From contig NZ_JAALJI010000042.1 in the NCBI RefSeq assembly GCF_011064595.1, positions 1 through 34,198 on the forward strand: a DNA stretch of 34,198 bases. The letters are read 5' to 3'. The notes beneath the pieces were generated by a model that saw only the letters and a program-made list of their open reading frames with translations, was not told the DNA's origin and searched no databases. Below are positions 8,238-32,804 of the stretch, in pieces. Both the position numbers and the translations under genes were made by a program. Numbering within the stretch: position 1 is the first letter of the stretch; each line of letters begins with the position of its first letter. Source of the DNA: Paludisphaera soli. GTDB taxonomy: Bacteria; Planctomycetota; Planctomycetia; Isosphaerales; Isosphaeraceae.

Positions 8238-8253
8238 GGGATTACATTTCGCC

Positions 8254-12292: not shown

Positions 12293-12355
12293 CACTGTCC
12301 TCCTCACGTGAGCTTACGCTCTTGTCGGAGCGCTCGCCAATCGTGGGGAAGTCCA

Positions 12356-12409
12356 GACCTCAGCCTGGACAAGAAGATGCTCCAGGACGTCCTGTCAAAA
12401 AAAGTCTGA
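12356..12409 (+). pseudogene. IS3-family OrfA, last 17 codons only
   Basis: The frame D-L-S-L-D-K-K-M-L-Q-D-V-L-S-K-K-V ends at TGA 12407-12409. This is the typical C-terminus of OrfA in IS407/IS2-like members. Everything upstream is gone, replaced at about 12340-12355 by sequence next to the divergent IS3-family element. The A7 run at 12397-12403 is the remaining frameshift site into OrfB. Confidence 0.7.
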
Positions 12410-14025: not shown

Positions 14026-14754
14026 TCAGGACCGGGCCGGCGGGCGCGACGGCCTGTCGAAGCAGATGCGGCAGCGTTCGCAGCTGATCGGCGGGCAGGA
14101 CCTCGGGACGGCCTGCTCGTACGGGCAGACCAGCACGCAGTTGGCCCGCTTGAGCGGCCCGGACCGGCGGACGCGGAAGGCCAGGTCGGCCGACGCCGGC
14201 ACCGATCCGGGCGGCTCGCCCGGCCCGATCATCCAGGCCGTCCGGACGCCCGGGTCGCGGGGCGGGGGGCCGGAGTCGCGGTCGCCGGAATACCACAGCC
14301 GCACGTTGGGGAGGCCGGCGAAGTCCGCCAACGCCCCGCGGATCTCCGGGGCCCTCCAGGACCTCGTGTAGGCGAAGAAGACGGTCGAGCGGCAGATCCG
14401 CGCGGCCTCGGCCCAGAGGCCGACGTAGCCCGCCGAGTGGAAGTCGCCCGAGCCGTGGACGCGGACCACGCGGACGAAGTCGCGGCGGACCTGATCGACC
14501 AGGTCGGCGACGAACCCGGGGCCCTCGGCCCGGGCCAGGTTCCGGGCGTGGCGAGTCTTCACGGATGGGAAGGCGAAGCGGCCCGAGCGCGCGTAGCAGG
14601 ACGCCCGGCACGCCGGAGTGGCCCCGGGGCAGGCGGCGACCGCAGGGGTCGAGAAGGTCCAGATCAGCTCCCGCCCCAGCTTCGAATTCCCCCGGCAGAG
14701 CAGCGGGGGGCGTGTGCCGGGGGCGGGCGCGAGGAGTTCGAGGCGATTCGACAT
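14026..14754 (-). CDS. Gp88-like protein (phage-type, function unknown)
   Basis: I start it at ATG 14754, preceded by CCAGGAG about 7 nt upstream; the frame is open much further (to 15381) but that part is Arg/Pro-rich and unlike a protein. The 242-aa product starts MSNRLELLAPAPGTRPPLL and has the family-like phrase NSKLGRELIWTFSTPAVAAC, then CPGATPACRASCYA, VRVHGSGDFHSAGYV, FFAYTRSW, and a C-terminal Cys cluster (LVCPYEQ ... CERCRICF). Seven or more cysteines suggest metal binding. This matches the Gp88 family known from phages and mobile DNA, whose role is unknown. It stands alone between gene-poor stretches. Confidence 0.75.
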   Translation of the reverse strand: MSNRLELLAPAPGTRPPLLCRGNSKLGRELIWTFSTPAVAACPGATPACRASCYARSGRFAFPSVKTRHARNLARAEGPGFVADLVDQVRRDFVRVVRVHGSGDFHSAGYVGLWAEAARICRSTVFFAYTRSWRAPEIRGALADFAGLPNVRLWYSGDRDSGPPPRDPGVRTAWMIGPGEPPGSVPASADLAFRVRRSGPLKRANCVLVCPYEQAVPRSCPPISCERCRICFDRPSRPPARS

Positions 14755-16428
14755 GGGGCGGCTCCTGGAAGTCGGCCCGGTCCGGTCCCGGGCCGGCGGC
14801 CCGGCGTGCGTCCGGGCTCGTGCGGGTCGGTCGGTGACGCGCGAGGACTCGCCGGGGCCGAGGTGCCGGCCGGCGAGTCCTCGCCCGAGAGGCTCGGGGG
14901 TGCGGAGGTCGAGTCGCGGGGCCGCGTCGGGCGACCTTCGCGAATCCGAGGTGGGGGAGGGGCCGACCGCCACGCCGTGCGGCCCCCGGACGCACGCAGC
15001 CCCAGGCGGCGGGGAACGCCGCGAAGCGGGGCCGGCCCGCCCGAGCCGCGAGCACCGGCCGGGGACGCCCGACCCCTCGGCGATTCCGACGCGGGAAGGA
15101 GGGACCTCGTCCCTGAGCTCCCTTTCCTCCCGAGTCCATGGTCGGCGATTTACCCCGACCACGCGGCGTTCGGGCTGCGGATGCCGTCGCGAAGCAGGTC
15201 GAGGGTCTAACGGGCCCCGTCTCTCGATGACGCGATTCCACCGCGGATTAAGCGGAGACGAGGAGGGGGGCGGCCCACAGGGGCCGCTCGGGCGGGATAA
15301 ACTCCTCTGACTCTCTACCGACCTCCCCGATCTTCGGGGCGGGCCCCCGTCTCGGATCGTCCGGATCCGACGTTCGGGCACGTTTGCGAGGTCGAGTGCA
15401 GGCGTCGCAGGCCGAACCGACCACGGCCCCGCTCAGGTCCAGCTCATGCGACACCTCCTCTCGCGTCCTGCGGAGTCGCACGGCCGGCGTGGGAAGCCGA
15501 AGAGCGATCGGCCAGACCGGGTCGGCTACGCTGGAATCGATGCTGCTCCTCGCCGAACCGGTCCTCCCTCCACCGGAAGGGGAGCGTCGTCCGCCCCTGG
15601 GTTCTGGGCCTCGGTGAGCTCGCCTGCCTTCCGATCGGAGCGAATGACGTCGTCGCCGGGCACGGCCGCGGACGCACCGTCCTCCGGGACGTCACCCTTC
15701 GCCGAGACGGCCCCATCGCCGCGGCGGCCCCGTCCCCGGACGTGAGCAGCCGAACTGAGGCTCACCCTCGCGCCCGGAGGAACTGGCCATGCGGATGCGG
15801 ACACGCGACATCCCGCCGGGACTCGCCGGGACGAGAAGACGGACGACCGATCCTCCAGCCCCATGCCGGGTGTTGTCGGGCCGCTCGGAATCCATTCAGC
15901 GGAACCGTGACAAGGACACTATTTCCGACGCCCGCGACGAGCACTCCCGGCTTCCAAGCCCACTCGCCGGCGAACACGTGCCAGCAGCTCGGATCTTCGA
16001 AGTCCCCGTCCAGTTCGTGCATCGGGACGCTTCGCCACGCTGTCTCCCCCCGCTCGATCGAAGGCGGCTCGGACGCGACGAGAGAGACCCTACGATGACG
16101 GGAGATCCGGATGTTCGGTGGTGAAGGAGGACGACGCTCGCTTCCCCGCCGACAAGCTCATCCAGGACGCAGTTACGCTGGGCCGGCACGTCGGCGTATT
16201 CGTCCCGATTCTTGGGATAACGCTTCGATCCGGGCGGGCTGTGGAAGCTCCCTCATCGCGCCGCGAAGGCCGCCCCAAGTCGATGCGACACCGGCTCGCA
16301 GCCGGGGAACTAGGTGGACCAGTCGTCGAGCATTCGAGGCACCAACCCGAGGCCAGACGGTTCCCGCCCCAGATGACGGCGCCTGGTCATCGGTCCGGGC
16401 ACAGGACCTGGACGCCCCCGTTCAACAC
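14755..16428. other. about 1.67 kb without a supportable gene
   Basis: All six frames were considered. Open frames exist but are Arg/Ser/Pro-rich shadows. Two short stretches look slightly more protein-like and may be gene remnants: minus strand 15890-16022 (MHELDGDFEDPSCWHVF then GEWAWKPGVLVAGVGNSVLV) and plus strand 16118-16210 (VKEDDARFPADKLIQD then AVTLGRHVGVFVPILG). Neither has a family I know or a convincing end. Confidence 0.5.
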
Positions 16429-16430
16429 TA

Positions 16431-16461
16431 CTGACTCCAGCATGGCCAAAGTGACACCGGT
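16431..16461 (+). repeat. IS630 left terminal inverted repeat
   Basis: CTGACTCCAGCATGGCCAAA and the following GTGACAC correspond to the right end read on the minus strand (CTGACTCCAGTATAGTCAAA then GGAACAC). The first ten bases are identical. Confidence 0.85.
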
Positions 16462-17492
16462 CACAAGCGGAGCGGGATCTCGGCGTGGCGGATGAACGAG
16501 GCCAGGAGTTCGGGCCGTCGTCGCAGGTCCGACAACTCCCGGCACAGCCGCAATCTCAGTTCGGCGGTGTCTTCGGGGGCGTAGTTGGGCAGGCGGTGGT
16601 ACTTGGTCCAGCCCCACACCCCCTCGTCCGGGTTCGCCTCCGGGGCGTAGCCGGGGAAGTCCTCGGCGACGATCTCCGGATGCTTCGCCAGGTAGGCCTT
16701 CACGAGGCCCGACCGGCCGTGGATCCGGCTCCGATCCCAGAGGATCGTCATCGGCCCGCCGAGGCGGGACTTCAGGCCCTTCAGGAAGGCGACGGAGTCC
16801 TCGCCCCGGGCGTTGGCGTCGTCGGGCAGGAGGCGGAAGTAGAGGTTGGGCCTGCGTCGCTTCGGGCTGACGGTCACGGCGCTGATCGCCGAGATCCGCC
16901 CCTTGCGATGCCACGCCTCGACGAGCGGCGTGCGGCCCCTCGGGGCGTACGTGCGACGGACCACCGGCGTGAGCTGGAAGCCCGACTCGTCAAGAAAGAC
17001 CAGGTGGGCTCGCCGCTCGCGAGCCTCTTCGAGGATCCGAGGGAGCTCCTCGGCCCTTCAGTGGGCGGTCCGCTCTTCATCCCGCTGCCGGGCCTTCTTC
17101 TGCGGCCGCTGGCTGCTCCAACGCAGCCGCCGCCGGAGGATCTTGCGGACGTGTTCGACGTGGTACTCGACGCCGAAGCGACGACGGACGAGTTCGGCGA
17201 CCCGGCCGGCGCTCCACAGATCGTTGGGCCAGCCGTGGGCCCGGGCGCCTTCCAGCAGCAGGCGCTCCAGCTCCCGAAGCCGCTCGTCGGCCAGCCGGGG
17301 CCGGGGGCCGGGATGGGGCCTGGCGGCCAGGGCCTCGGGGGACTTCTCGGCCAGGGCGAGCCAGCGATACAGCGACGTGCGGCCGACGCCGAGGATGCGG
17401 GCGACGACGGTGGGCGACTCCCCCCGCCGCATCAGTTCCACGGCGTGGCGACGGCGACGTTCCAGTTCCTGCGCGGTTCCAACGGGTCTCAT
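16461..17492 (-). pseudogene. IS630 transposase with one in-frame opal codon
   Basis: ATG 17492 starts MRPVGTAQELERRRRHAVEL, a helix-turn-helix (GESPTVVARILGVGRTSLYRW) and the HTH_29/33 linker (RLADERLRELERLL, WSAGRVAELVRRRFGVEYHV). At 17058-17060 a TGA follows E-R-T-A-H; the same frame goes on with RAEELPRILEEARERRAHLV, the first Asp in VFLDESGFQ, second in ILWDRSRIHG and the Glu/Asp motif in APEANPDEGVWGW, to the stop at 16461. The TGA sits where relatives usually have Trp (TGG), so one G-to-A change on the coding strand would break it. Otherwise it is full length (about 343 codons). Confidence 0.85.
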
Positions 17493-17515
17493 GCCCTTAC
17501 TACGACGAAAGCCGC

Positions 17516-17546
17516 ACGAGTGTTCCTTTGACTATACTGGAGTCAG
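17516..17546 (-). repeat. IS630 right terminal inverted repeat
   Basis: Minus strand starts CTGACTCCAG at 17546 and matches the left end. TA at 17547-17548 completes the target duplication. Confidence 0.85.
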
Positions 17547-17548
17547 TA

Positions 17549-18026
17549 AGGCCTTGCGATTTCTGTAGTTCATAGTGCGGTGACCGGCTGTACGACGATG
17601 TAATCGCGCCGCTTCCTTTTCACCCCTTCCGGGACTCGTCGGGGGCCGGCCGCTGCGGCGTCTCCGGCTACCAGTCGTGGCACCGTCACCCTGCGAAGTG
17701 AGCCGGGCGTGGATGTCGGTCGCGTCCTCGGGGTTGTCGCCGGTGCCGCCCGTCGACGCGGTCGTTCCGCCGCGCCTCTCCCGCCCTGCCTGGCGATGGG
17801 GCCCGCGGCCGGGATGGTCGCGGTCGGGGGGGCCCGTCCGCCGCGCCGTCTCGGGACGCGCGCCGAGGCCGCCGTTCGCGAAGTCCAGGCTGCCCTCCGG
17901 TCGGTCGGAGTTCGCCGCGGAGGCCGACGTCGGCTCGCACCATGGAACGGCCGCACCTTAGGCGGAGGCCGCGAACCTGGAGGACTGCTCTACGTGCATT
18001 TCGGGGCGTCCCCCTACAAAGGGGCC
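17549..18026. other. 478 bp without a supportable gene
   Basis: Arg-rich open frames cross it on both strands. The only sign of function is near its right end, where CAAAGGGG (about 18017-18024) serves as the likely RBS of the DUF1580-like gene. Confidence 0.45.
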
Positions 18027-18362
18027 ATGGCCGCCGCGCATCGCGGGGGCCGAGCCGAGGAGGAACTTGAAGTGGCCGAGCCCGAAGCCCCCCTGACGGT
18101 CGCCCAGGCGGCCAAGCTCTACCCCCGCGGGACTCATGTCAGCACGGTCATCCGGCACATCACCAAGGGCGTGAGGACGCCCGGGGGCGTGGTGAGGTTG
18201 GAGGCCTCCAGGATGGGCGGCCGCTGGACGACGACGGCCGCCGCGGTGGAACGTTTCCGGTCGGCGTGCACCACGGCCCGGATGCCGACCTCGCCGCCTT
18301 CCGCCCGGACGACGACCCAGGCGCAAGTGGCGGCGCACCTGGATGCCATCGGCTTCGGGTAG
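18027..18362 (+). CDS. DUF1580-like helix-turn-helix protein (111 aa)
   Basis: I choose ATG 18027 because an AAAGGGG element lies just upstream; the longer frame from 17709 is Arg-rich without a domain. The protein has PLTVAQAAKLYPRG, HVSTVIRHITKGV, VVRLEASRMGGRW and TTAAAVERFRSAC, the order expected of an excisionase-like winged helix in which a shape-reading helix is followed by a strand and a final helix. This resembles the planctomycete DUF1580 family as I recall it, often found beside integrases. It lies between two IS630 elements with no integrase directly adjacent, so it may be orphaned from the fragment at 19960-20302. Confidence 0.6.
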   Translation: MAAAHRGGRAEEELEVAEPEAPLTVAQAAKLYPRGTHVSTVIRHITKGVRTPGGVVRLEASRMGGRWTTTAAAVERFRSACTTARMPTSPPSARTTTQAQVAAHLDAIGFG

Positions 18363-18428
18363 AGCTCTGCCGCTCATCCTGGCGAACTTCCGCGAAAGGT
18401 CGTTGTACGCTTTTCATAGACCTGACAT

Positions 18429-18979
18429 CTAGCCTCCTATGCTCAGTAAGATGCACCCCGGCATCCGAAATGACATCGCAATCTTCGACGACCTTTGGGC
18501 GTGAACGCGTCGATCGAGCTGCCTCCAGAGGCCCTCGACGGTCCACTCGTCGGCCTTCCGCAGCAGGGCCTCGAGCTTGAAGGAGGCCTGCTCGATCGGG
18601 TTCGGATCGGGGCTGCACAGCGGTATATGCAGGAGCCGACAGCCCGCCTCCTCGATCGCCTCGCGGACGCATCGCCGCTTGTAGCACGACAGGTTGTCCA
18701 TGGCCACGACATCGCCGGGCAGCAGGGCCGGCCGGGTCGAGTCGCTGGGGCACGTAGGCCGCGAACGACTCTCCATTGATCGCCCCGTCGACCACGACCG
18801 GGGCGATCACCGCCGTCGGCCCGCAGGCCGGCGACGAACGTGGTCGTCTTCCAACGCCCGTGCGGTACGGCCACGACCGGCCGCACGACGCCGGGGGCCC
18901 GGCTCCGAGTCCGGCTCATGTTCGTGCTCGCCCAGGTCTCGTCGACGAACGCCAGGCGATTCGGGTCCAGCCCCGGCAT
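18429..18979 (-). pseudogene. IS630-type OrfB (DDE domain) with two frameshifts
   Basis: The first piece has MPGLDPNRLAFVDETWASTN (first Asp) and GRWKTTTFVAGLRADG. Near 18812 one extra base shifts to the frame with VIAPVVVDGAINGESFAAYV. Near 18745 a further shift leads to PALLPGDVVAMDNLSCYK (second Asp) and SPDPNPIEQASFKLEALLRK (catalytic Glu), ending at 18429. Put together these give a normal DDE_3 domain. Substitutions in otherwise conserved spots (for example SPDPNPIEQAS) also point to decay. Confidence 0.8.
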
Positions 18980-19028
18980 GGCCTCCCGGCAACGGTCGCG
19001 GGCCTGAAGGACGTCGGGGCGGTCCGGC

Positions 19029-19373
19029 TCAGCGGCCCTCAGAACTTTTTTGGGTCACGCCCAGGGCGTGGAAGGCCAGCCAGAGCGTGGAGATCCCAAG
19101 GTCCAGCCCGAGGCGGCGGCGGTGCTCCTCGAGCGTGGCCCGAGGGGCCTCGCGGGCTGAGACGCGGATGGCCTCGGCGTGCCCGGCACAATTCGGCGCC
19201 CGGCCGTACTTCTGCGCCCGCGGGGCGACCTCGCCGGTCTCGCGGCGACGCTGCTTCAGGCGGCGGGCCCAGTTGGGGCTGACGCCGTACTTGGAAGCCA
19301 TCTCGGCGGTCGGCAATCCGGCGTCGCAATCGGTGAGCACGCGCTTGCGGAGGTCGGCGGAGTAGGCTCTCAC
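19029..19373 (-). CDS. IS630-type OrfA (HTH part), fused to OrfB by -1 frameshift in the original element
   Basis: The likely start is GTG 19373 (V-R-A-Y-S-A-D-L-R-K-R-V-L). The helix-turn-helix is LPTAEMASKYGVSPNWARRL, followed by KQRRRETGEVAPRAQKYG and a second HTH (TLEEHRRRLGLDLGISTLWL). The stop at 19029 follows the slippery A6G at 19051-19045; the -1 frame continues K-K-V-L-R-A-A-E-P-D into OrfB. Confidence 0.7.
   Translation of the reverse strand: MRAYSADLRKRVLTDCDAGLPTAEMASKYGVSPNWARRLKQRRRETGEVAPRAQKYGRAPNCAGHAEAIRVSAREAPRATLEEHRRRLGLDLGISTLWLAFHALGVTQKSSEGR
19045..19051 (-). promoter_or_regulatory. -1 frameshift site of the second IS630-type element
   Basis: The minus strand reads CCAAAAAAGTT. 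Slipping one base back takes the ribosome from OrfA (Q-K-S-S-E-G-R-stop) into the OrfB frame. Confidence 0.6.
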
Positions 19374-19473
19374 GGCATGGCCCTCGGGTCGGCGATACCG
19401 CGAGATTGCCCGTCCCGTCAACAGGACGCTAGACCTTCGGGCAAATCGCTCTAAAGTTTGTAGCAGGGTCTAG

Positions 19474-21173: not shown

Positions 21174-24100
21174 ATGCCGGGTACTCCCGAAAGAGACGGT
21201 CTGTCTAGCGATCGACGTCGGCATCCGGGCCGCCCCAGGAAGTCGTGGAGGTCCCGTCGCCTCAAAATGGGGGCCGAGCCGCTCGAAAGGCGGGTCCTGC
21301 TGCACCAGTCCCCCTGGACACGGTGGGGGGACCCCGCGCCCGAGCTCGCGGCATGGGTCGAGGCTCGCAAGGCTCCGGCCGAAATCGGAGCGTCGCCGGC
21401 CATCCGCTGGCGGCCCCGGTCCGGGCCGGTCGGCGAGGCGTCCCGGGTGCCGGGTGAAGCGGGCTCGACGACCTCCACCACCTTCACTCTGATGGCGCGC
21501 CGGACGTCGTCCCGTAACGAGGTCGGCCTGTTCCTCGTCGACGACGCGAGCGGGCGGATCGGCGGCTTGCGGCCCGGCGACCGGGGCTACGCCGCCGCGG
21601 CGCTGGCCCGCGGGCAGGTCCTCTTCGGACGCAGTCAGGACGCGGGTGCCGTCGCCCAGCTTGAGCTGCCCGGCGGCTCTTACTTCGGGACGTACCTGGT
21701 CCGGGACGGGAGTCGGGAGGCGTACCTGGCCCGGGGCGGAGGGCGCCGCACGGGCCGGAAGCCGATGGTCTTCCTGTCGTTCGCGGCCGCCAACCCGGAC
21801 CGCTTTGCTCATGTGCGCCGGCCCGCCGCCGACGTGCTCGCCATGGAGGACCGGTGGCGGGGCGGGGATCGGGACTTCGACGACGCAGTGATTCGGATGG
21901 CCTTCGCGGTCCGGCCCGGGGGCGGTGACGGGCCCGAAAGCCCCGGGACGAACCTGGCTCCCGTAATCCGGATCGAGGGCCCGGCCGATGGTGGGGCGTT
22001 CAACCGGAACTTCACGATTGCCGGAACCGCGCGCGATGATGGCGAGCTGAGGGCGGTCGACGGCAGGCTGATCGGCCCCGCCGGGGAGGCGACGCCCGTG
22101 CTCGCCTCCCTGGATGCAGCGACAGGCGCGTTTTCCATAGCGACCTCGTTCCGCACCGACGGCACCGAGGACGGCCGTTACACGGCGAGGCTGATCGCGA
22201 GGGATGACCGAGGTCTGGAATCGCCCCCCGCCGAACTCGGCTTCACGCTCGACACCCTGGCCCCGGTGCTGTCCCTCACGCAGTCCCCCGGCCCTTCGCC
22301 GGTCGGGGTGCCTCCTATCTTCACGGGGATAGCGACCGACGGCCTTTCGGGCGTGCGACGCGTGCAGGTACAGCTCGACGGCGGCGAGCCCCGGGACCTC
22401 CCGATCGATTCGACGGGGCGGTTCTCCTATGAGCCGGCCCTTCGCCTCGACGGCGGGGATGATGGGCTACACTGGGTCCGCTTCATCGCCACCGACGCGG
22501 CCGGCAACGATTCCCTCCCGATCGACGGCTCGTTCACCCTGATCGCGGCCCCCTCGGGAACGGTGCAGGTCGGGCTCGCCCCCAGCTCCGACTCGGGGGT
22601 CGTCGGGGATCTCAGGACGACTTACGGCCGCGTGCTTCTCGTCGGACGCGCTTCGCCGACCTCGCGAGTGCGCCTGCCGAACCTCGATCGGGAGACGGTC
22701 GCGGACGCCGCCGGCGTCTTCCGCTTCCCGGACGTCTCGCTCTTACCCGGCGAGAATCGATTCGTCTTCGTGGCGCACAGCTCCGCCGGGGACGGCTCGA
22801 CCGTCGCCGTCACCATCGTCCGCGAGCCGACGAGCGGCCCGCCCCAGGCCGATCCGGTCGTCCTCTGGAACCGCATCACGCTCGAGGCCATCGCGGCCGA
22901 AGCTGTGAGCCCCCCAGTCGCCTCGCGAGCTTTGGCGATGGTGCAGGCGGCCGTCCTGGACGCGGTGAACGCCGTGGACGGCGTGCGCGGGGAGTACGTC
23001 ACCCTCCAGCCAACGGGCGAGACCTCGGTGGCGGCGGCCGTCTCGGGCGCGGCACACCGGATCCTCGAGCATCTATTCCCGGCACGCATCGCGACATTCG
23101 ACGCGACCCTGGCGGCTTCGCTGGCGGACCTTCCCAACGGCCCCGGCAAGGCCAACGGGCTGGCCGTCGGCCGGTCGGTCGCCGACGCGATCGTCGCTTG
23201 GCGGTCCGAGGACGGCGCGACTCGCTACGTCGAGGCTCCTTCGGACGACACGTTGGGCCGTTGGCGACCGACCCTGCCGGCTTTCGTCGAGGCGGTGACC
23301 CCCCAGTGGGGCCGGCTCGAGCCGTTCGTCTTGACGACCGCGGATCAAGTCCAACTCCCAGGACCGCCCGACCTCGCCTCGTCTCGCTACGCGGCCGACA
23401 TCCTCCAGGTTCAGGAACTGGGCCGGATCGACAGCGCCACGCGCACGGCCGAGCAGACCGAGATCGCCCGGTTCTGGGCCGACCCGCTCGGCACCTATAC
23501 GCCGCCCGGCCGGTGGAACCAGATCGCGCAGGAGGTGGCCCTGGCCCAGGGCAACAGCATCTCGGCGAACGCCAGGCTGTTCGCGATGCTGGGGATTGCC
23601 CTGGCGGACGCGGCGATCGCGTGCTGGGACGTGAAGTACGAGACGAGCTTCTGGCGGCCGATCACCGCGATCCGCGAGGCCGACGTGGACGGCAATCCGC
23701 TGACCACGGCCGACCCGGGCTGGGCTCCCCTCATCACGACGCCGGCCTTCCCGGAATACGTCTCGGGCCACAGCGCGTTCAGCGCCGCGGCGGCGACGAT
23801 CCTCACGTCCGCGCTGGGCGGCGTCGGCTTCGCGACGACGTCCCCAAGCCTCACGGGGGTCCGGCGCTCGTACGCCGACTTCTGGGACGCGGCCGACGAG
23901 GCGGCCAGCAGCCGGATCTACGGCGGGATCCACTATGCCTTCTCGGTCGAGGACGGCCTGACGCTCGGCCGCCAGATCGGGGATTACGCGCTGGAGCAGT
24001 TCACCACGGACGACCGGCAGCCGCCACGCCTGCTGGTCGACGGCCCCGCCTCGGGCGCCGTCTTCCGCGACGCCCCGATCCTGACCGGCCGGGTGAACGA

Positions 24101-27100
24101 CGCGGTCAGCGGCCCGGCCTCGCTCGCCGCGTCGGTCGACGGCGCGGCCCCTGCGCCCGTGCCGTTCGACCCAATCACGGGATCATTCCGATTCCAGGCG
24201 GCGTTTGTCGCGGGAGGTGCCGCCGACGGTGCGCATACGATCCGCCTGGTCGCAGCCGACCATGCGGGCAACACCTCCGCGCCGCTGGAGTGGCGGTTCG
24301 TCCTCGACACGCTCGCCCCCGCGATCAGCCTGACGTCTCCGGCCCACGGCTCGGAGGTCCAGGGCTCGATCCGCCTGACCGGCGTCGCAGACCCGCAAGG
24401 GTCCAGCCTGGTGCAACTCGCCTACTCGCTCGACGGCGGCACCTCGACGGCCGTACCCTTCGCCGCCGCGACGGGCGCGTTCGACGCGACGATCGACCTC
24501 CAGCGCCTCTCCGCCGGCGCCCACACGCTCGAACTGCGCGGCGTGGACGCCGCGGGGAACGTCTCCACGCGTGTCGTGCCGCTGACCGTCACGCGGGCGT
24601 CGACCCCCACCGTGGCCCGGGCCGAGCCCCAGGGCGGCTCCGTCGACGTGGGGACGACGTTCCGGCCCAGGGTGACCTTCAATCGGCCGATCGACGCGAC
24701 GACCCTGAGCGAGGCGAACTTCTACGCCTCCTACAGCGGCCGTAAGCTCCCCATGACGATCGTCCCGGCGAGCGACGGCTCGTTCGCCTGGCTCTTCCCC
24801 CGCGAGCCGATGCCGGGCTCGGCCTCCATCACGCTGACGGTCGACGGCTCGACGATTCGGGCGTCCGACGGCGCCCTCCTCGACGCCGCGGGCAGCGGCC
24901 AGCCGGGCAGCCGCCTCGAACTCCGGTTCACCACCGTCTCGAGGACGAACGTCCCCGGCACGGTGATCGCCGGCGTCGTGGTCGATCCGGGACCCGACCG
25001 GGCACCGATGACCCTCGACGACACCCGCCCGGGCCCGGACGGCCTGCTCGGGACCGGCGACGACGTCTACCTCCGGCCGATCGCCGGCGCCTCGGTGTTC
25101 ATCCTGGGGCGGGAGGACGTGGTAGTCCTCACCGACGCTCAGGGCCGCTTCCGCTTTGACGCGGTGCCGGTCGGCAGCGTCAAGCTGGCCATCGACGGCC
25201 GCACCGCCACCAACGTCCCGGCCGGGGTGTTCTTCCCGGAGATGGTGATGGACCTGGTCGTCCAGCCCGGCCGGGTGAACACCGTGATGGGCACGATGGG
25301 CGACTCGACCCGCGCCGCCGCGCTGGCCGACGTCACGGGCGTGTACCTCCCCCGCCTGTTCCAGAGCATCCTCCAGCCGGTCGGCGGCACCGCGCCGGTC
25401 ACGATCGGGGCGATCGCCGCCGCTGCCCCGGAACTGACGCCCGAGCAGCGGTCGAACCTCCGCCTGGTGGTCCCGCCTGACAGCCTGATCGGCCTCGACG
25501 GCCGCAAGCTCGCCTCCGCCCAGATCGGGATCAGCACCGTCCCGGCCGAGTTGGTGCGCGACATGCTGCCCCCGGGCGTGCTCCAGCACACCTTCGACGT
25601 GACGATCCAGGCCCCCGGGGTCAGCACGTTCGCTGCGCCGGTGCCGATCACATTCCCGAACGTCTTCAACGCCCCCCCCGGCACGAAGCTCAACTTCCTG
25701 AGCTTCGACCACACCACCGGCCGCCTCGTGATCGAAGGGACCGTCACCGTCTCGCCCGACGGCAAGAGCGCCACTACCGACCCGGGCATGGGCGTCATCC
25801 ATCCCGGTTGGCACGGGATGGGTGCGGAGGGGAGCGAAGGAGATGGCGGGGACGATGACGGCGGGGGGTGCAAATGCGGAGGCGGAGGTAACAGCGGCGG
25901 CGGAGGTAACAGCGGCGACGAGGAGGCACCTCCCTTTGTCAAAGAGAGCCTCCCTCTTATTTCCGGGTTGGTCCCTTCCTGGAAAGCCAAGCAGTTTGCC
26001 ATCCTCGAAGATGGGACCACCCACGTCGGCGACCAGGCCGGTGCTTTCACGGTCCTCGTCCAACCACCTCCCAGGGACCAGGGCGACGGCTCGGGCGGCG
26101 CACCCGAGTGTCCGCCTGACGACCCGACGCCGCGAGTCGTCAGGCGGATCTTGGAAGTGGATGCTTCCGGCCCGCTCGGTGATTTCCTGGAAATCGACGG
26201 GCCATACCCCTTCAAGGACCGGATCCAAATCGAGGTGAGCGTGGGCAAGGACCCGGTCAAGTACTCCCTCAAACCTCTATCCCTTGGGGAGATGCGCGCC
26301 CGTCGGGGCCGACATTGGGAGGAGAACACGCTCTACGGGGGGACGCTCCGCATCAAGATCAAGGACGAGATGTCCGACGGGTCGACCCAGACTTTGTTCG
26401 ATAACGAGGAATATTTCTATCGGTTCGTGGAGGCGACGGACGACGATCCCGGCGATCATCTCGTCAATTTCCCCAAGGCGGTGGCCGGGGTTCAAAGGCG
26501 AATTCCTTTCGACATCGTGGCAGACAAAAGCAGCAACCCGATTTTTCTGCCTGTAGGACCTTTCGGCTTGGAGAACGACTTTGACTTTGTCGTCTCTTTG
26601 AACCCCACCGGGACCACCAATGACGGAATGCTGGAGTTCTACGGCGCCGACGGTGTCAGGATAGGTCTGGAAAGCCTCAGGCAGATTGGCGCGCAACCTC
26701 TGCGTGTTGGCATCGACATCTCGCAACTCGCTCGGGAGCTTGAGGATGCAAAACTGATCGATCTCGGAGTCAATTATACGCAGCTCTCAAACGACATCAT
26801 CTCAACCGTCAAGAGTATCCTCGGGACCATCCCAGGGTCGTCGCAGATCGTTCAAATCGTGCCGGCCGGTACGGGGGGGCGGGACTTAACGTTTTCCCGG
26901 ACGCTCGGACAAGAGGGCTCTACGGGGATCACGAACCCGCTCGCCGCCTTACGGCTGATCCAGCAGCGGAGCAATACCCAGAGCAAATACGCCTCCATCT
27001 TCGCCATGAGCAAGGTCATCGGGCCCGAGCTCTCGGGGGAGATTGTCATCGACATTGGAAAGGTTCTGCAAACGCTACGATCGCCATTCGGCGACCCATT

Positions 27101-30100
27101 CGGGGGCTCGGATTCAATCCGAGCCTACACGAGCAAAGTCATCACTCACGAGATTGGTCATGCTCTAGGAGTTTTCGGGCATCCAACAGTCAACTCCATC
27201 GACGACATCATGCGGTCTGCGTCCGTGCAGACGGCCACGGAGCCGGGATTCTTCTACGTCGCAGGCTCGACCATCCAGGTGAGCGCCGGGGGCTGGTGGT
27301 CGCTCGACGCGGCCCTTCGGGGCTTCAAGTACGCGCTCACTGTGGACCCTATGAAAGGTTACGACACCGACGAGGCCCCCCCCCAACCCATCTTTCCAGA
27401 GGGCCTCCCATTCCTCGACGAGGTGAATGGCGTCCCCTCCCCGACCCGACTAGATCTCGGGCGGATCGATCGCGACGCCCCCCAGTCGATCGCCCTGAGC
27501 GTGAGCAACCTGGGCAGGACCTCGATCAAGGACCTGCGGGTTTCTTTGGTGACGCGCGACGGGAATCGACTCGGAGAGATCGAGCCGGGCGCGATCACCA
27601 TCGACGTGGGAGGCACGGCGAATTTGTCGCTCTCGTTCGCGACCCAAGTCCTGGGGACCACCGAAGCCGTCCTGCGGGTGGGATCCGCCGCAGCGGGCGT
27701 GTTGGCTGAGGTCGACATCCGATTCACGGCAGTCTCCCGGGCGTCCTCGCTCGAGTTCGAGTTGGTCGACAACAACCTTGGGGGCGTCTTGACAGGCAGG
27801 CGCTCTCGCGAAGTTGTCGTCGGATATCTCGTCAACCACGGCGACTCGCCGATCTCCATCACCGACTCCGGCCTGATCACCCCTGCCAACGGGTTCGGCT
27901 TTTCCTTCGACCGGGTCAACCCCTTGGACGGCCCGCTCGTCATCCAGCCTGGCGGACGCTTGGGCGTGAAAGCGTTGTTCGCCCCCGAGCGCGAGGGGCT
28001 GACAAGGACGCAGGTTCGATTCGTCTCCGACGCCGCGATCAACTCCACGATTTCCGTGACGTTGGTCGGGACGGGCCTCCCGGCGATGGGCGGACCACAA
28101 TGGGGCGCCGACTACGTGGCGTTCGTCACCCCTGATCTCGCCAATTCCGTCACGCTTCGGACGACTAGCGACGCCGCCGGCAACTTCCGACTCTTCGTGC
28201 CGGCGAGCCAGCGGTTCGAACTCTCCGTCTTCGACCTCGAGACTGGACTGCTCGGGCTGAACTACGGGAGGACGGCGCAATCCGGCGTACCCACACGCCT
28301 GACGGCCGGCATCGTCTTCGCCGCCAGCACCGCGCCCGACTCCGACTTCGATGGCCTGCCCGACGACGTCGAGTTCGCCGTCGGCACGCTGCGCGGCAAG
28401 GCCGACAGCGACGGCGACGGGCTCGACGACTTCGCCGAGATCATCCAAGGGCTCGACCGCACCGGCTCGTCCGGGGCGCTCCCGACCGGCGTGGTGGCAG
28501 GGCTCTCGCTCGCCGGCGAGGCGCGCGAGGTGGTCGTCGCGGGCGGCACGGTCGACACGCGACAGATCACCGGCTACGTCGCCACCGGCTCGTACGGCCT
28601 GGCGGTCGTGGACCTGACACAGTTCCGCAAGCCGGTCTTGCTTGGGGACGTCGATCTGGCTGGCGACGCCGTGGACGTGGCCGTCGACGCCTCGACGAAC
28701 GTCGCGGTCGTCGCGTCGGGCGAGGGCGGGCTCCACTTCATCGACGTCTCCGACCCGCGCAATCCGAGGCTCCTCCGCACCCGGCCGATCGACGCCCGTC
28801 AGGTGGAGATCGTCCGCGGCGTCGCCTACGTCGCCGACGGGGACACCGTCCGCGCCTACGACCCCACCAATGGCGAGGAACTCGCCGCTTCCGCGAGCCC
28901 CCAGGAGGCCGAAGTCACCGGCCTGGCCGCCGAGGGTGGCTTCCTCTACGCAATGGACGCCGGTCGGCATCTTCAGGTCTACGATCTGGCCGGGTTCGGG
29001 TTGAAGTCCCGCGGAATGGTGCAGATGCCGCAGGGGGCCGCTCGGATCTGGGTCAGCAACGGCATCGTCTACGCGGGCGCCGCCGGCTCGCACCCGCAGG
29101 GAGGCTACGCGACCGCCGACGTCTCGGACCCGGACCGGCCCGTCGTGGTCAGCGACAGGGACGTACCCGAGGGGTTCGCGGTGCCCGGCCTGGCGCTCAT
29201 CGAGAACGGCGCGGGCCGCGGCCTGCTGATCGGCAGGGAAGGGGGCACCGGGCTCGCGGCGGTCTACCTCATGAATACGGGCGACCCGGAATCCACCTAC
29301 AACGTCGCGACACGCTTTCCGCTCCCTTCGGAGCCGGGCGGCGGGGCCATCGCTGCGGGGGTGGGCTTCATCGCCGGCGGCGCCTCGGGCCTCCATGTGG
29401 TCAACTACCTGCCGGCGGATGCCGGGAGCATTCCGCCCCAAGTCGTCGTCGCGACCTCGGCGATCGACCTCGACCCCGAGAGGCCGGGCATCCAGGTCCC
29501 GGAGGGCAGCCCGATCTTGTTACCGGTGACGATCCGCGACGACGTTCAGGTGCGATCCGTCGAGGTGCTGGTCAACGGGAAGGTCGTGAGCAACGACGTC
29601 TCCGCGCCGTGGGACCTCCGGGTCGTCCTGCCCACGCGGGCCGAGGCCGCCACGGCGACCGTGCAGGTCCGGGCCACCGACACCGGCATGAACGCGACGC
29701 TGTCCACCCCGATCGTCTTCGAACTCCTCGCCGAACGAACCGCGCCGACCTTCCTCGGCTCGACCCCAGGGGAGGGCGGCACCGTGGTCCGGTCGAGCCC
29801 GGTTTCGCTCCGCTTCGACGAGGGGCTCGCCCCGGGCTCGATCGTGCCGAGCGGTTTCCGCCTCACTTGGCTCGGTCCCGACGGGCGGCCCGGCGGCGGG
29901 GACGATGCGGTCTTGCCCCCGGTCGCGATCTCGTTCCCTTACCTCCACACCATGATGATCGCCGCCGCGGACCCGCTGCCCGTCGGCAATTTCGAGTTGG
30001 TCGTGGAGCCCGGCGCGGTTGCCGACCTGGCGGGCAACCCGCTCGGCTCCCGCATCACGTTGCACTTCGCCAACGCCGAGTTGGAGCCCGGCGCGGTCGG

Positions 30101-32804
30101 ATGGATCTCGAACGCCAGCGGCGACTGGAATGACGCGGCGAACTGGAGCACCGGCCGCGTGCCTGGGCCGCTGGACGACGTCGTGATCGACCGGCCGGGG
30201 GTCGCGATCACTGTGACGCACGGCTCCGGCGAGACGCACGTGCGCAGCCTCCGCGTCGCCGAGGCGTTCGTCCTGACGGGAGGCCGCATCAAGGTGACCG
30301 GCCGCTCCGAGATCCGTGGCGCCCTGACGATTCGCAACGCCACCTTGGAAGCCTCGGGCCCCGACGCCTCCCTCGTGCTGCCCGCGTCCGGGCAGTTCGC
30401 GTCCGCGGTCCTGTGGGCCAGGAACGGTGGGGTGATCGACGGGAGCGCCATCACGGCCATCCAGGGCAGCCCCAATTTTGTGGCGTCGGGCGAGGGCAGC
30501 GTCATCAACCTCCGACGGCTCGCGAGCTTCACGAACGCGCTCTTCGACGCGTATGGCGTACCCGGAGCTGGGATCGCCTCCGGGGTCGACGGCGACGTCG
30601 GCGGCCAGATCATCATGCCGTCGCTCACGACGCTTGAAGGGGTGAGATTGAGCCTTCGCGGCCCGATCGATGCCGGTCGTCTCACCTCCTTCACGAAGGG
30701 CTATCTAAATGTCGGGGGTGATCGACCATGGGTGTTCCCCGAGCTGAGCGATATCACAGATAGTTCGATTCGCCTTGACTTCGATGCGATGCTGAGCCTG
30801 CCCGCGGTCAGGGAGGTGCACAGCCATCTTGCCTATCTTTCCTGGGACGCCTCGGGAGGTGCGCTCGATGTCCCCAACCTTGTGAGTTTGACGTACGACA
30901 ACGACTCCTGGCCGTTTCGCTTGTCCGCATCGTACGGGGGCCAACTGAAGCTGCCGCGGCTTCGGGAGATCCGCGGGTTCGTCGAGGTCTACGCCGGCAG
31001 GTTTCAAGGAGACCTTTCCGACGGAAGCGAGATCGACCTCTCCGGACTCACCTCGATCGCTCCGCCCGACGCCTCGGAGGCTTTCGCCAGACGACCGACC
31101 ATCTACGTAACCGGTCGACTCCGCGTTCCCTCGCTGACGGCCCTCGAAAGCGTGGACTTGTCCATCCTTAGTGGCGCCACGATTGACACCGCCCAGATCA
31201 CCTCGTTTCGCAACGGCAAGCTCACGCTCGAGGCCTCGGTCGATTTCCCCTCGCTCGCGAACATCGACGGCGCGACGCTGGATGTGGGCCCGGGCCAGAG
31301 CCTAAGCCTCCCGTCGATCACGCAAATGCGGAACACGAGGGCCGGCGGCTTCGTCGTCCGCGGGGGCTACCTCGCGCTGCCGAGGCTGGAGAGCATCGAC
31401 GGCCCCGTGTCCGTGAGCGCAGGCCGCTCCTCGAGCGATCTGCCGGCCGAGATCGACCTCTCCGCTTTGAGGTCGATCAGCAACTCTCACGGCAAGATCG
31501 CTGCTGGCGACGGTCGCATCCGCATGCCTCTGCTCACCTCACTGGATGGATTCGAGCTTGCGGTCACCGAGGCCACGGACACGGCCCAGCTCACCGCTGT
31601 CACGAACGGGGTGATTTCCTTCTCGGGTCATAATCCCCCCGATCTTTCGGGGATCACGAACGCCGATGGCTCGCAAATTTACGTATTTGGAGGTGTTCTC
31701 CGTCTGCCCGGCCTCAGATCCTTGAAAACCGGACCACACCCCGGGAGCCTGGGGTCGATCTACGTCGCCGCAGGTGCCCACCTGGACATGTCGAACATGA
31801 AATCGATCGACCTGCCCAGTGCCCAAGTGGGAGTGCCCTTGATTCGCATCTCACGGGGCGGCCTGCTTGAGATTTCCCGCGAGACCGTCAGCTGGAACGG
31901 CGGAGTGGTTATCGCCGACGGCACGCTCCGCGCCGGCAGACTTCTGCTGGAAGGTCGGTCCGAACTCACGGGAGACGGCACGGTCCAGGCGACGGTGCAG
32001 GTCCAGGGGACCCTGGCTCTCAACTCCGCAACGATCGACGGCGACTTGGTTGTGGATGATGGGGGTCGCATAGAGGCCTTGCTCGGGGTCAATTCGCAGT
32101 TCGGTTATGTGAGCCGCCTTGTCGTGACCGGGACGGCCTACCTGGGGGGCGTCCTATCGGCCTCGATCTACGGCGCCTTCCCGTTGCGGGTCGGCAACTC
32201 GCACGAAATCCTGGCGTACGGGTCGAGAGTGGGAGAGTTCCGGGCCACTGAGGGGTTGAAGGCGTACGAGAGCTTCGGCTTCGTCCTCCGGCCGGTCTAC
32301 GGTGCCAGCGGCTTGGCGTTGCAGGTCGGTCGGCCCCTCATGGCCGCTTCGGTCGGATCGTCCCGGGAGCCGGGGGCAGGCCCTTCGGACGCGGACCTGC
32401 AACGGACTTTCGACGCCGCGCTCGAGCGATGGGGGGCCGTCTTGGGTCGCCCCATCCGGCCCCTGCTCGACGAAGTCGACGTCTCGCTGGACGACCTCGC
32501 GGATGGAGTGCTGGGGGTGGCCATGCCTGGCCGAATCGCCCTCGACCGCGACGCCGCCGGCCACGGCTGGTTCATCGACGATTCTCCGTGGGACGACGCG
32601 GAGTTTTCGGCGGAGACCGGACGCCAAATGGGAGAACCCGAGCGGATCGACTTGCTGACGGTCATACTGCACGAGGTGGGGCATCTTCTCGGCTACGATC
32701 ACGAGGATGACTCGGCTACCGGACCGATGTCGCCGACTCTAGCGGGCGGGACCCGGCGAACTCTCCCGTCGGGGGTCGTGAAATATCTCGTGGACAAGCC
32801 ATGA
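21174..32804 (+). CDS. giant LEPR-XLL surface protein with vanadium haloperoxidase and two metzincin motifs (3876 aa)
   Basis: I start at ATG 21174; GTG 21108 in the same frame has no better RBS. Residues 32-43 (MGAEPLERRVLL) form the planctomycete LEPR-XLL sorting-type motif; no classic signal peptide is seen. Then Ig-like domains (about 260-550); a vanadium-dependent haloperoxidase domain (560-943) with K821, R828, S864-G865-H866, R914 and H920; more Ig-like and SbsA-type domains (to about 1270); a carboxypeptidase-like beta domain; a Gly/Asp-rich linker with CKC (1548-1585); a metzincin motif HEIGHALGVFGH (1992-2003); an ASPM/Hydin-like pair; Asp-rich Ca-binding repeats (from 2389); an LVIVD-like propeller (about 2443-2746); an SbsA-type domain; a W-x-W-type repeat (from 2976); beta-solenoid repeats (about 3026-3650); and a C-terminal matrixin motif HEVGHLLGYDHE (3833-3844). 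It is probably cell-surface or secreted. Confidence 0.88.
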   Translation: MPGTPERDGLSSDRRRHPGRPRKSWRSRRLKMGAEPLERRVLLHQSPWTRWGDPAPELAAWVEARKAPAEIGASPAIRWRPRSGPVGEASRVPGEAGSTTSTTFTLMARRTSSRNEVGLFLVDDASGRIGGLRPGDRGYAAAALARGQVLFGRSQDAGAVAQLELPGGSYFGTYLVRDGSREAYLARGGGRRTGRKPMVFLSFAAANPDRFAHVRRPAADVLAMEDRWRGGDRDFDDAVIRMAFAVRPGGGDGPESPGTNLAPVIRIEGPADGGAFNRNFTIAGTARDDGELRAVDGRLIGPAGEATPVLASLDAATGAFSIATSFRTDGTEDGRYTARLIARDDRGLESPPAELGFTLDTLAPVLSLTQSPGPSPVGVPPIFTGIATDGLSGVRRVQVQLDGGEPRDLPIDSTGRFSYEPALRLDGGDDGLHWVRFIATDAAGNDSLPIDGSFTLIAAPSGTVQVGLAPSSDSGVVGDLRTTYGRVLLVGRASPTSRVRLPNLDRETVADAAGVFRFPDVSLLPGENRFVFVAHSSAGDGSTVAVTIVREPTSGPPQADPVVLWNRITLEAIAAEAVSPPVASRALAMVQAAVLDAVNAVDGVRGEYVTLQPTGETSVAAAVSGAAHRILEHLFPARIATFDATLAASLADLPNGPGKANGLAVGRSVADAIVAWRSEDGATRYVEAPSDDTLGRWRPTLPAFVEAVTPQWGRLEPFVLTTADQVQLPGPPDLASSRYAADILQVQELGRIDSATRTAEQTEIARFWADPLGTYTPPGRWNQIAQEVALAQGNSISANARLFAMLGIALADAAIACWDVKYETSFWRPITAIREADVDGNPLTTADPGWAPLITTPAFPEYVSGHSAFSAAAATILTSALGGVGFATTSPSLTGVRRSYADFWDAADEAASSRIYGGIHYAFSVEDGLTLGRQIGDYALEQFTTDDRQPPRLLVDGPASGAVFRDAPILTGRVNDAVSGPASLAASVDGAAPAPVPFDPITGSFRFQAAFVAGGAADGAHTIRLVAADHAGNTSAPLEWRFVLDTLAPAISLTSPAHGSEVQGSIRLTGVADPQGSSLVQLAYSLDGGTSTAVPFAAATGAFDATIDLQRLSAGAHTLELRGVDAAGNVSTRVVPLTVTRASTPTVARAEPQGGSVDVGTTFRPRVTFNRPIDATTLSEANFYASYSGRKLPMTIVPASDGSFAWLFPREPMPGSASITLTVDGSTIRASDGALLDAAGSGQPGSRLELRFTTVSRTNVPGTVIAGVVVDPGPDRAPMTLDDTRPGPDGLLGTGDDVYLRPIAGASVFILGREDVVVLTDAQGRFRFDAVPVGSVKLAIDGRTATNVPAGVFFPEMVMDLVVQPGRVNTVMGTMGDSTRAAALADVTGVYLPRLFQSILQPVGGTAPVTIGAIAAAAPELTPEQRSNLRLVVPPDSLIGLDGRKLASAQIGISTVPAELVRDMLPPGVLQHTFDVTIQAPGVSTFAAPVPITFPNVFNAPPGTKLNFLSFDHTTGRLVIEGTVTVSPDGKSATTDPGMGVIHPGWHGMGAEGSEGDGGDDDGGGCKCGGGGNSGGGGNSGDEEAPPFVKESLPLISGLVPSWKAKQFAILEDGTTHVGDQAGAFTVLVQPPPRDQGDGSGGAPECPPDDPTPRVVRRILEVDASGPLGDFLEIDGPYPFKDRIQIEVSVGKDPVKYSLKPLSLGEMRARRGRHWEENTLYGGTLRIKIKDEMSDGSTQTLFDNEEYFYRFVEATDDDPGDHLVNFPKAVAGVQRRIPFDIVADKSSNPIFLPVGPFGLENDFDFVVSLNPTGTTNDGMLEFYGADGVRIGLESLRQIGAQPLRVGIDISQLARELEDAKLIDLGVNYTQLSNDIISTVKSILGTIPGSSQIVQIVPAGTGGRDLTFSRTLGQEGSTGITNPLAALRLIQQRSNTQSKYASIFAMSKVIGPELSGEIVIDIGKVLQTLRSPFGDPFGGSDSIRAYTSKVITHEIGHALGVFGHPTVNSIDDIMRSASVQTATEPGFFYVAGSTIQVSAGGWWSLDAALRGFKYALTVDPMKGYDTDEAPPQPIFPEGLPFLDEVNGVPSPTRLDLGRIDRDAPQSIALSVSNLGRTSIKDLRVSLVTRDGNRLGEIEPGAITIDVGGTANLSLSFATQVLGTTEAVLRVGSAAAGVLAEVDIRFTAVSRASSLEFELVDNNLGGVLTGRRSREVVVGYLVNHGDSPISITDSGLITPANGFGFSFDRVNPLDGPLVIQPGGRLGVKALFAPEREGLTRTQVRFVSDAAINSTISVTLVGTGLPAMGGPQWGADYVAFVTPDLANSVTLRTTSDAAGNFRLFVPASQRFELSVFDLETGLLGLNYGRTAQSGVPTRLTAGIVFAASTAPDSDFDGLPDDVEFAVGTLRGKADSDGDGLDDFAEIIQGLDRTGSSGALPTGVVAGLSLAGEAREVVVAGGTVDTRQITGYVATGSYGLAVVDLTQFRKPVLLGDVDLAGDAVDVAVDASTNVAVVASGEGGLHFIDVSDPRNPRLLRTRPIDARQVEIVRGVAYVADGDTVRAYDPTNGEELAASASPQEAEVTGLAAEGGFLYAMDAGRHLQVYDLAGFGLKSRGMVQMPQGAARIWVSNGIVYAGAAGSHPQGGYATADVSDPDRPVVVSDRDVPEGFAVPGLALIENGAGRGLLIGREGGTGLAAVYLMNTGDPESTYNVATRFPLPSEPGGGAIAAGVGFIAGGASGLHVVNYLPADAGSIPPQVVVATSAIDLDPERPGIQVPEGSPILLPVTIRDDVQVRSVEVLVNGKVVSNDVSAPWDLRVVLPTRAEAATATVQVRATDTGMNATLSTPIVFELLAERTAPTFLGSTPGEGGTVVRSSPVSLRFDEGLAPGSIVPSGFRLTWLGPDGRPGGGDDAVLPPVAISFPYLHTMMIAAADPLPVGNFELVVEPGAVADLAGNPLGSRITLHFANAELEPGAVGWISNASGDWNDAANWSTGRVPGPLDDVVIDRPGVAITVTHGSGETHVRSLRVAEAFVLTGGRIKVTGRSEIRGALTIRNATLEASGPDASLVLPASGQFASAVLWARNGGVIDGSAITAIQGSPNFVASGEGSVINLRRLASFTNALFDAYGVPGAGIASGVDGDVGGQIIMPSLTTLEGVRLSLRGPIDAGRLTSFTKGYLNVGGDRPWVFPELSDITDSSIRLDFDAMLSLPAVREVHSHLAYLSWDASGGALDVPNLVSLTYDNDSWPFRLSASYGGQLKLPRLREIRGFVEVYAGRFQGDLSDGSEIDLSGLTSIAPPDASEAFARRPTIYVTGRLRVPSLTALESVDLSILSGATIDTAQITSFRNGKLTLEASVDFPSLANIDGATLDVGPGQSLSLPSITQMRNTRAGGFVVRGGYLALPRLESIDGPVSVSAGRSSSDLPAEIDLSALRSISNSHGKIAAGDGRIRMPLLTSLDGFELAVTEATDTAQLTAVTNGVISFSGHNPPDLSGITNADGSQIYVFGGVLRLPGLRSLKTGPHPGSLGSIYVAAGAHLDMSNMKSIDLPSAQVGVPLIRISRGGLLEISRETVSWNGGVVIADGTLRAGRLLLEGRSELTGDGTVQATVQVQGTLALNSATIDGDLVVDDGGRIEALLGVNSQFGYVSRLVVTGTAYLGGVLSASIYGAFPLRVGNSHEILAYGSRVGEFRATEGLKAYESFGFVLRPVYGASGLALQVGRPLMAASVGSSREPGAGPSDADLQRTFDAALERWGAVLGRPIRPLLDEVDVSLDDLADGVLGVAMPGRIALDRDAAGHGWFIDDSPWDDAEFSAETGRQMGEPERIDLLTVILHEVGHLLGYDHEDDSATGPMSPTLAGGTRRTLPSGVVKYLVDKP
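22851..24002 (+). other. vanadium haloperoxidase domain within the giant protein
   Basis: Encodes residues 560-943. The vanadate pocket is complete by spacing: Lys and Arg seven apart in KYETSFWR, SGHS in EYVSGHSAFS, and Arg and His six apart in SRIYGGIHY. These equal the K353/R360, S402-H404 and R490/H496 pattern of the fungal vanadium chloroperoxidase. Bacterial proteins of this PAP2-like family oxidise halides or act as phosphatases; which applies here cannot be told from the sequence. Confidence 0.85.
25815..25928 (+). other. Gly/Asp-rich linker with CKC motif and GGGGNS repeats in the giant protein
   Basis: The frame reads acidic Gly/Asp residues, then GGGCKCGGGGNSGGGGNSGD. It separates the haloperoxidase-containing half from the first metzincin-containing part. 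It contains two of the very few cysteines in the protein, within a flexible hinge. Confidence 0.7.
27060..27260 (+). other. internal metzincin-type zinc protease motif in the giant protein
   Basis: HEIGHALGVFGHP at residues 1992-2004 fits HExxHxxGxxH with the catalytic Glu. It is followed by DDIMRS, which may supply the Met-turn. The surrounding domain (about 1850-2060) is not one I recognise. Confidence 0.7.
30250..32130 (+). repeat. beta-solenoid-like repeat region in the giant protein
   Basis: Residues about 3026-3652 carry many short units with the look LPxLxxIxGxxLxVxxG (for example FPSLANIDGATLDVGPG, LPRLESIDGPVSVSAG, MPLLTSLDGFELAV). Unit length is about 20-30 residues and irregular. 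The pattern suggests a right-handed beta-solenoid or LRR-like stalk. Confidence 0.65.
32655..32735 (+). other. C-terminal matrixin-type zinc protease motif in the giant protein
   Basis: HEVGHLLGYDHE at residues 3833-3844 has the HExxHxxGxxH form. Upstream are GRIALDRDAAGHGWFIDD and, downstream, GPMSPTL as a likely Met-turn. This C-terminal arrangement is familiar from other planctomycete surface proteins. Confidence 0.75.

Follow-up and report, generated by a model that had tools for sequence, protein, structure and literature searches.

A predicted vanadium haloperoxidase module in a giant modular protein of Paludisphaera soli, and the probable horizontal spread of the whole gene

Introduction

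Can a vanadium haloperoxidase (VHPO) be a working part of a giant multi-modular protein, and is such a protein the product of a one-off fusion or a member of a wider family? As far as we know, those bacterial VHPOs that have been characterised occur as stand-alone enzymes. The question is raised by a 34,198-nucleotide stretch of DNA from Paludisphaera soli (hereafter the window), in which an open reading frame (ORF) of 3876 amino acids, counted from ATG, occupies 21174..32804 on the forward strand (ORF list and Pfam), with GTG at 21108 as an alternative start that would add 22 residues. An earlier note, made from the letters of the DNA, had proposed that this ORF encodes a surface protein with a complete VHPO active site. 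VHPOs oxidise halides with hydrogen peroxide (PMC11871015), and giant genes of more than 5 kb, many of them annotated as cell-surface proteins, have been described in planctomycetes and elsewhere (PMC5352709).

Architecture of the giant open reading frame

The VHPO is indeed one module among several, as the ORF also carries Ig-like, carb, propeller and matrixin-like parts, all on the forward strand. Near the N-terminus, residues 37-43 (21282..21302) read LERRVLL, which resembles what we take to be the LEPR-XLL sorting motif. This motif is the sole basis for calling the product an LEPR-XLL protein, as the earlier note did; the profile search did not bear the name out, with no NCBIfam match at E<=1 for the first 109 residues. 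NF012209, which we had presumed to be the LEPR-XLL model, proved to be LEPR-8K and was dropped. A DUF4114 domain follows at 21666..21905 (Pfam), a feature also found N-terminally in the giant of Pseudanabaena (L064), and then an Ig-like or repeat region at 21957..22814 (domain and alignment searches) with an OmpL47-type match at residues 387-449.

Behind the VHPO domain (residues 557-946, 22842..24011; phmmer, AlphaFold2 and structure comparison) lie Big_7, Big_13 and Big_5 Ig-like domains (24012..25013; Pfam), which distance matrices indicate were inherited together with it. Next comes a conserved module of 278 amino acids at residues 1281-1558 (25014..25847), delimited by our own searches and here termed carb, with a CarboxypepD_reg-like start and a beta-rich remainder. 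Against the PDB it had no match at E<=0.001; pilin, carboxypeptidase D, teneurin and UNC5b came up weakly and were set aside. A metzincin-like motif, HEIGHALGVFGH, is seen in the sequence at residues 1992-2003 (27147..27182), followed by a TSP3-like, LVIVD propeller and Big region at residues 2185-2965 (27726..30068; Pfam and alignment), whose LVIVD score is below the cut-off in the window giant and above it in the homologue L049. The protein ends in a matrixin-like module at residues 3721-3876 (32334..32801; Pfam and alignment) with the canonical motif HEVGHLLGYDH.

Predicted fold and pocket of the VHPO domain

The earlier note had suggested overlaying a predicted structure of the domain on the fungal chloroperoxidase (VCPO). 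The AlphaFold2 model (45 sequences; pLDDT 93.1, pTM 0.92), in which model residues 10-399 correspond to protein residues 557-946, has helices at model residues 14-130 that make up a first bundle and at 163-397 that make up a second, a division read off the helix list. VIA-align 2 superposed it on the fungal structure 1idu with Z 36.4 and an rmsd of 2.4 over 382 residues, and on 4usz, the Zobellia iodoperoxidase, with Z 48.8, an rmsd of 2.3 over 380 residues and 30% identity; Foldseek agreed with VIA-align 2 on a VHPO fold. As described in PMC4859513, VHPOs have N- and C-terminal helix bundles with the vanadate site in the C-terminal one, which is the arrangement of the model, and PAP2 acid phosphatases have a single five-helix bundle, from which the model departs by an extra N-terminal bundle that matches VHPO structures. 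We conclude that residues 557-946 are predicted to form a complete two-bundle VHPO fold.

The sequence pointed to the same relatives. In a phmmer search of the PDB with the domain, the Zobellia galactanivorans vanadium iodoperoxidase 4cit was matched at E 2.3e-45 over 376 query residues (19-394) and the fungal VCPO at E 1.5e-14. All seven pocket residues align with 4cit; the K, R and S-G-H residues align with VCPO, and for the last R and H the only counterpart came from a second alignment piece whose score was not significant. By alignment, K821 (23634..23636) faces what we take to be VCPO K353, R828 (23655..23657) faces R360, S864-G865-H866 (23763..23771) face S402-G403-H404, R914 (23913..23915) faces presumably R490, and H920 (23931..23933), by analogy the vanadate ligand, faces H496, with R360 and H404 also named in PDB entry titles. 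The site proposed at 22851-24002 (residues 560-943) thus falls inside the domain with all seven residues in place. The claim that they are spaced as in the fungal enzyme stood within the motifs (K-x6-R, S-G-H and R-x5-H) and failed between them, where R to the H of SGH spans 38 residues in the window domain versus 44 in VCPO (R360, H404) and the H of SGH to the last H spans 54 versus 92 (H496). The isolated domain reached 30.3 bits with the PAP2 profile (cut-off 27.2) and stayed below the cut-offs of the curated VCPO_N (25.0 versus 29.3 bits) and VCPO_2nd profiles (24.8 versus 27 bits); in the whole ORF, PAP2 at residues 809-932 scored 24.6 bits, under its cut-off, and VCPO_N and VCPO_2nd were weak. 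The domain is the single VHPO match in its own genome.

Since the pocket motifs are common to VHPOs and acid phosphatases, for which a kinship has been proposed (PMC4859513), pocket residues alone are no proof of halide oxidation. A surface phosphatase of the PAP2 superfamily that scavenges phosphate and merely keeps a VHPO-like fold would agree with the PAP2 profile match and with 3bb0, a structure of the VCPO apoenzyme titled as catalysing dephosphorylation. We nevertheless regard it as unlikely, because the two-bundle match to VHPOs extends over 380 residues at the Z of 48.8 given above, versus Z at most 15.7 over about 190 residues for the acid phosphatases listed, and because 125 of 130 aligned relatives have Trp and 107 of 130 Phe at the positions that we take to be VCPO W350 and F397, respectively.

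Occurrence and pocket conservation of VHPO relatives

At E<=1e-10, VHPO matches were found in 14 of 45 genomes of the family (the search by taxonomic order covered the same 45) and in at least 67 of 393 genomes of the phylum with a completeness of at least 90%, where the best four first-look candidates at most were scored per genome. Most of the matches listed come from ORFs with the length usual for an enzyme, about 400-770 amino acids, and the longest ORFs among them are those of G001 (6922), G250 (5260), the window (3906) and G421 (2571 amino acids).

Loss of the pocket residues in homologues would, according to the earlier note, speak against an active site. All seven are kept in 122 of 130 aligned domains (126 different, window included), a set in which 81 rows came from a genome-collection scan with the pattern SR[IV]Y[GL]GIH[FWY], which forces the last R and H; of the 49 rows picked up by similarity of the whole domain instead, 42 have the complete set, 6 show substitutions and 1 has a gap. 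By class, the residues are complete in 21/21 domains fused to a carb-bearing giant (a count that takes in the window, one contig of G421 twice, as L095 and as L049, and the cyanobacterial L058, L065 and L077, which match carb weakly and over part of its length), in 7/7 that neighbour such a giant, in 13/15 in other long ORFs and in 81/87 standing alone. These figures bear on the reading that the domain is a structural spacer, with fold and residues inherited and the enzyme inactive in the giant, where vanadate would not be loaded or hydrogen peroxide would not reach the site. The six losses in the motif-independent set, all outside the fused group, fit such decay, but every fused and neighbour row is intact at about 43-54% identity to the window domain, and even with the pattern selection of the 81 rows in mind we consider an inert spacer quite improbable.

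The changed planctomycete relatives (L012, L016, L055, L037, L052 and L054), whose substitutions include V or Q for the Lys, D or A for the Gly and N for the last His, may be inactive or have taken on another role. Further variants turned up in the same survey. A planctomycete ORF of 1412 amino acids (L050 5470-9705, G220) joins a VHPO-like domain to a full-length animal-type haem peroxidase domain (E 5.8e-173), placing two unrelated peroxidase chemistries within a single protein, and tandem double VHPO domains occur in single ORFs of 910 (L056, G102 C11) and 1098 amino acids (G449 C38), with a third copy nearby on the opposite strand in G102.

Fused giants in distant bacteria

The domain order, for which the earlier note had suggested a search, was found in other planctomycetes and beyond that phylum. 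It runs Ig, VHPO, Ig, carb, a metzincin-like motif in 8 of 17 giants, and propeller region. The window protein, from residues 327-430 to 1549-1558 and thus through the VHPO, aligns with those of G001 (48%), G250 (49%) and G421 (43%), and from 430 to 1549-1562 at 46-48% with three Rhizobium giants, which gives six giants collinear with it over 1,127-1,251 residues at 43-49% identity; that of G016, cut by a contig end, aligns with residues 353-1304 at 44%. Further on, residues from 2185-2400 to 2965 align at 33-38% in G001, G250 and G421, while the matrixin-like end module has counterparts near the C-terminus of G001 and G250. The carb module is 53-65% identical in the core fused giants.

The genome-collection scan, which yielded 80 loci, extended this range with giants of the order VHPO, Ig, carb (and propeller where the contig reaches) in metagenome-assembled genomes (MAGs) of Planctomycetota, Phycisphaerales, Rhodospirillales, Rhodocyclaceae, Burkholderiaceae and Sphingomonadales, in the isolates Ramlibacter cellulosilyticus USB13, Ramlibacter paludis XY19 and Asticcacaulis biprosthecium C19, and, in diverged form, in Pseudanabaena cinerea. 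The fused order therefore spans Planctomycetota and Alpha- and Betaproteobacteria, with a diverged version in cyanobacteria. With L081 left out, where the VHPO is split over two frames, the 79 classified loci comprise 17 fused, 7 with a neighbouring carb giant, 7 long without carb and 48 alone.

The metzincin-like module is the variable part of the order. The HExxH..G motif lies between carb and propeller in 8 of the 14 giants with both modules, window included, and is missing from the three Rhizobium giants examined, which gives the 8 of 17 above. As the interval between carb and propeller exceeds 600 residues in all eight giants with the motif and is below 460 in the six without it, the whole module seems to come and go. 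Its activity may also vary among giants, given that three of the eight giants read HELAH and replace the third His by D or E and that in the window the third His comes one residue later than in HExxHxxGxxH.

Co-inheritance of the modules

We used the carb module as an independent test of the association. In the family search at E<=1e-10, it was found in 3 of 45 genomes (window, G001 and G016), the same three that have a giant VHPO, with the two modules of G016 on two contig ends because the gene is cut. At least 18 of 393 phylum genomes gave a carb match when the best six first-look candidates at most were scored per genome. Among the matches scored, those at 58% or more came from the window, G250 and G421, with a VHPO in the same ORF in 3/3, and weaker ones (28-46%) from 15 further planctomycete genomes, with no listed VHPO match in the same ORF or within 100 kb. 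One exception is a strong carb module in an ORF of 3447 amino acids without VHPO (G449 C113).

Distances between VHPO domains correlated with those between the following Ig-like regions (r 0.87) and carb modules (r 0.68; both 19 giants) and between propeller regions (r 0.72; 16 giants), each at p 0.001 by permutation and after removal of the cyanobacterial giants L058 and L064; the organism history common to the modules contributes to these values. That common surface modules were shuffled convergently and a VHPO dropped in by chance is highly improbable: Ig-like modules are indeed common, ORFs of ordinary enzyme size form the majority of VHPO matches and a distinct group of cyanobacterial fusions carries a carb module that has diverged, but the collinearity of the six giants, the matrix correlations and the nearly constant company of a VHPO with a strong carb module (G449 C113 excepted) speak against it.

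Trees were less uniform. In a careful tree of 50 hand-chosen rows of the 130, the window and 17 core rows, picked from an earlier quick tree, fell on one side of a branch with support 88/93 (not starred), and the 17 core rows alone had support 82/81; in the quick tree of all 130 rows, the window joined stand-alone enzymes away from the core, and no starred branch supported this placement. The fusions of Pseudanabaena and Oculatella grouped apart from the core fusion. Because the careful tree unites window and core and the quick tree does not, a single origin of the core fusion is favoured rather than shown.

VHPO genes beside separate giants

A carb-bearing giant ORF lies near the VHPO in 7 of 62 non-fused loci, namely in Oscillatoria PCC 10802, a Gemmataceae MAG, Roseiconus nitratireducens, three Verrucomicrobia MAGs and a MAG titled Pedosphaera. 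The two frames are adjacent on the same strand, overlapping or within about 240 bases, in L078, L088, L106 and L111, adjacent on opposite strands in L099, and 3-6 kb apart in L059 and L107. For the 885 kb of non-fused flanks, chance would give 0.01, 0.12 or 0.44 such neighbours at 0.013, 0.13 or 0.5 carb modules per Mb, densities that are rough, the first two being estimated from searches (the first at a stricter E-value) and the third set arbitrarily as an upper limit. The Oscillatoria genome has three carb matches, each within 10 kb of a VHPO match, this genome having been chosen through one of them. In Oscillatoria and Verrucomicrobia, then, the VHPO and a giant akin to the fused ones can be encoded side by side in two genes.

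Plasmids and genomic surroundings

VHPO matches occur in 89 of 72,556 plasmid records and carb matches in 4 of the same 72,556, all from Rhizobium; these four are also the top four VHPO records, with both matches in the same gene, and three of them are typed conjugative. Since the four copies are labelled only 'Ig-like domain-containing protein', their annotation hides the enzyme. Three of the four records were examined and have a single CDS with VHPO and carb; the R. etli giant is annotated as two overlapping genes, and the C-terminal part of the R. beringeri giant is a separate CDS. In R. phaseoli (L156 6094-10032) and R. etli (L157 6515-10150), the giant VHPO gene is found near a large DUF4347 gene and genes for calcium-binding proteins. 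Mobilizable Nostoc plasmids carry shorter VHPO genes (L159 and L160), annotated only as CARDB- or spondin-domain proteins.

In the window, the region upstream of the giant gene (6644-19421) is dense with resolvase, integrase-core and DDE transposase ORFs, several of them fragmentary; of the ten ORFs searched between 6.6 and 19.4 kb, three have resolvase domains, two integrase cores, three DDE domains and two transposase-type HTH domains. A composition scan found no clear island border at the giant gene. Among five congeners, none has a carb match and one (G030) has a distant VHPO relative. The other contig end holds a 1769-amino-acid RHS-repeat protein with an Excalibur domain (645-5954), whose G+C content of 57-62% lies below the 71-74% of the DNA that follows.

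Proposed function

From the complete predicted fold, the full set of pocket residues and the collinear, co-inherited architecture, all of them observed, we infer an enzyme activity, and we think it probable that the gene encodes a secreted giant modular protein with a functional VHPO and that horizontal transfer moves the gene in its entirety rather than the domain by itself. In favour of mobility are the copies on conjugative plasmids, the flank rich in transposase and resolvase ORFs, and the five congeners of five that gave no carb match. With one layout found in bacteria far apart and on plasmids of rhizobia, the giant looks like a real, shared device and no one-off fusion. The VHPO module would bind vanadate and take hydrogen peroxide and a halide, most likely iodide or bromide given that the Zobellia iodoperoxidase is the closest solved relative in sequence and fold, and would release hypohalous acid where the giant is displayed, outside the cell. 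The Ig, propeller and matrixin-like parts would serve as a scaffold or stalk that offers surfaces for binding, and between carb and propeller part of the family would add the second, metzincin-like module. Because the oxidant is short-lived, tying its source to such a scaffold would limit oxidation to what lies close by, be it a neighbouring cell, a matrix polymer or a signal. The protein may be the surface-tethered oxidant producer that the earlier note had envisaged.

Defence, signal quenching and modification of the cell's own matrix all fit, and the data do not choose among them. In a diatom, N-acyl homoserine lactones are inactivated by a natural haloperoxidase system (PMC3917277), and an iodine-accumulating Arenibacter has at least five homologues of the Zobellia enzyme gene (PMC5064120). 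More tentatively, and as a possibility rather than an expectation, the giants may form an unnamed, horizontally mobile family of contact-range oxidant devices, built as one gene or as adjacent genes by lineage, that halogenate or cross-link their own scaffold or a neighbour's surface. Through its conserved attachment to a giant scaffold, a group of VHPOs is assigned a place and a partner, and the culturable hosts of the fused gene (Rhizobium etli, R. phaseoli, Ramlibacter and Asticcacaulis) make its role open to genetic study.

Comparison with known systems

The closest solved relative, the Zobellia iodoperoxidase (4cit, 4usz), has the pocket segment FPEY-x-SGHS in common with the window domain, whereas its 458-residue chain is without the Ig, propeller and protease modules of the giant, and in an alignment by eye its residue that we take to be Y263 is replaced by L772. 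The chloroperoxidase of Curvularia inaequalis (1vnc, 1idu) has the same two-bundle fold and pocket residues, in a 609-residue chain with longer spacing between motifs, and is a less close relative than the iodoperoxidase. Stand-alone VHPOs of planctomycetes, Verrucomicrobia and cyanobacteria are about 29-56% identical to the window domain with mostly the same pocket, but are mostly ORFs of ordinary size without a giant scaffold, a minority lying near one. In size class the window ORF is like the giant genes of PMC5352709, in the text of which the word 'haloperoxidase' has no occurrence, and no title or abstract opening among the open-licence PMC papers listed deals with giant VHPO proteins or a link to giant neighbours. 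The kind of enzyme is known; the giant VHPO family, and the link of VHPOs to giant neighbours, appear to be new.
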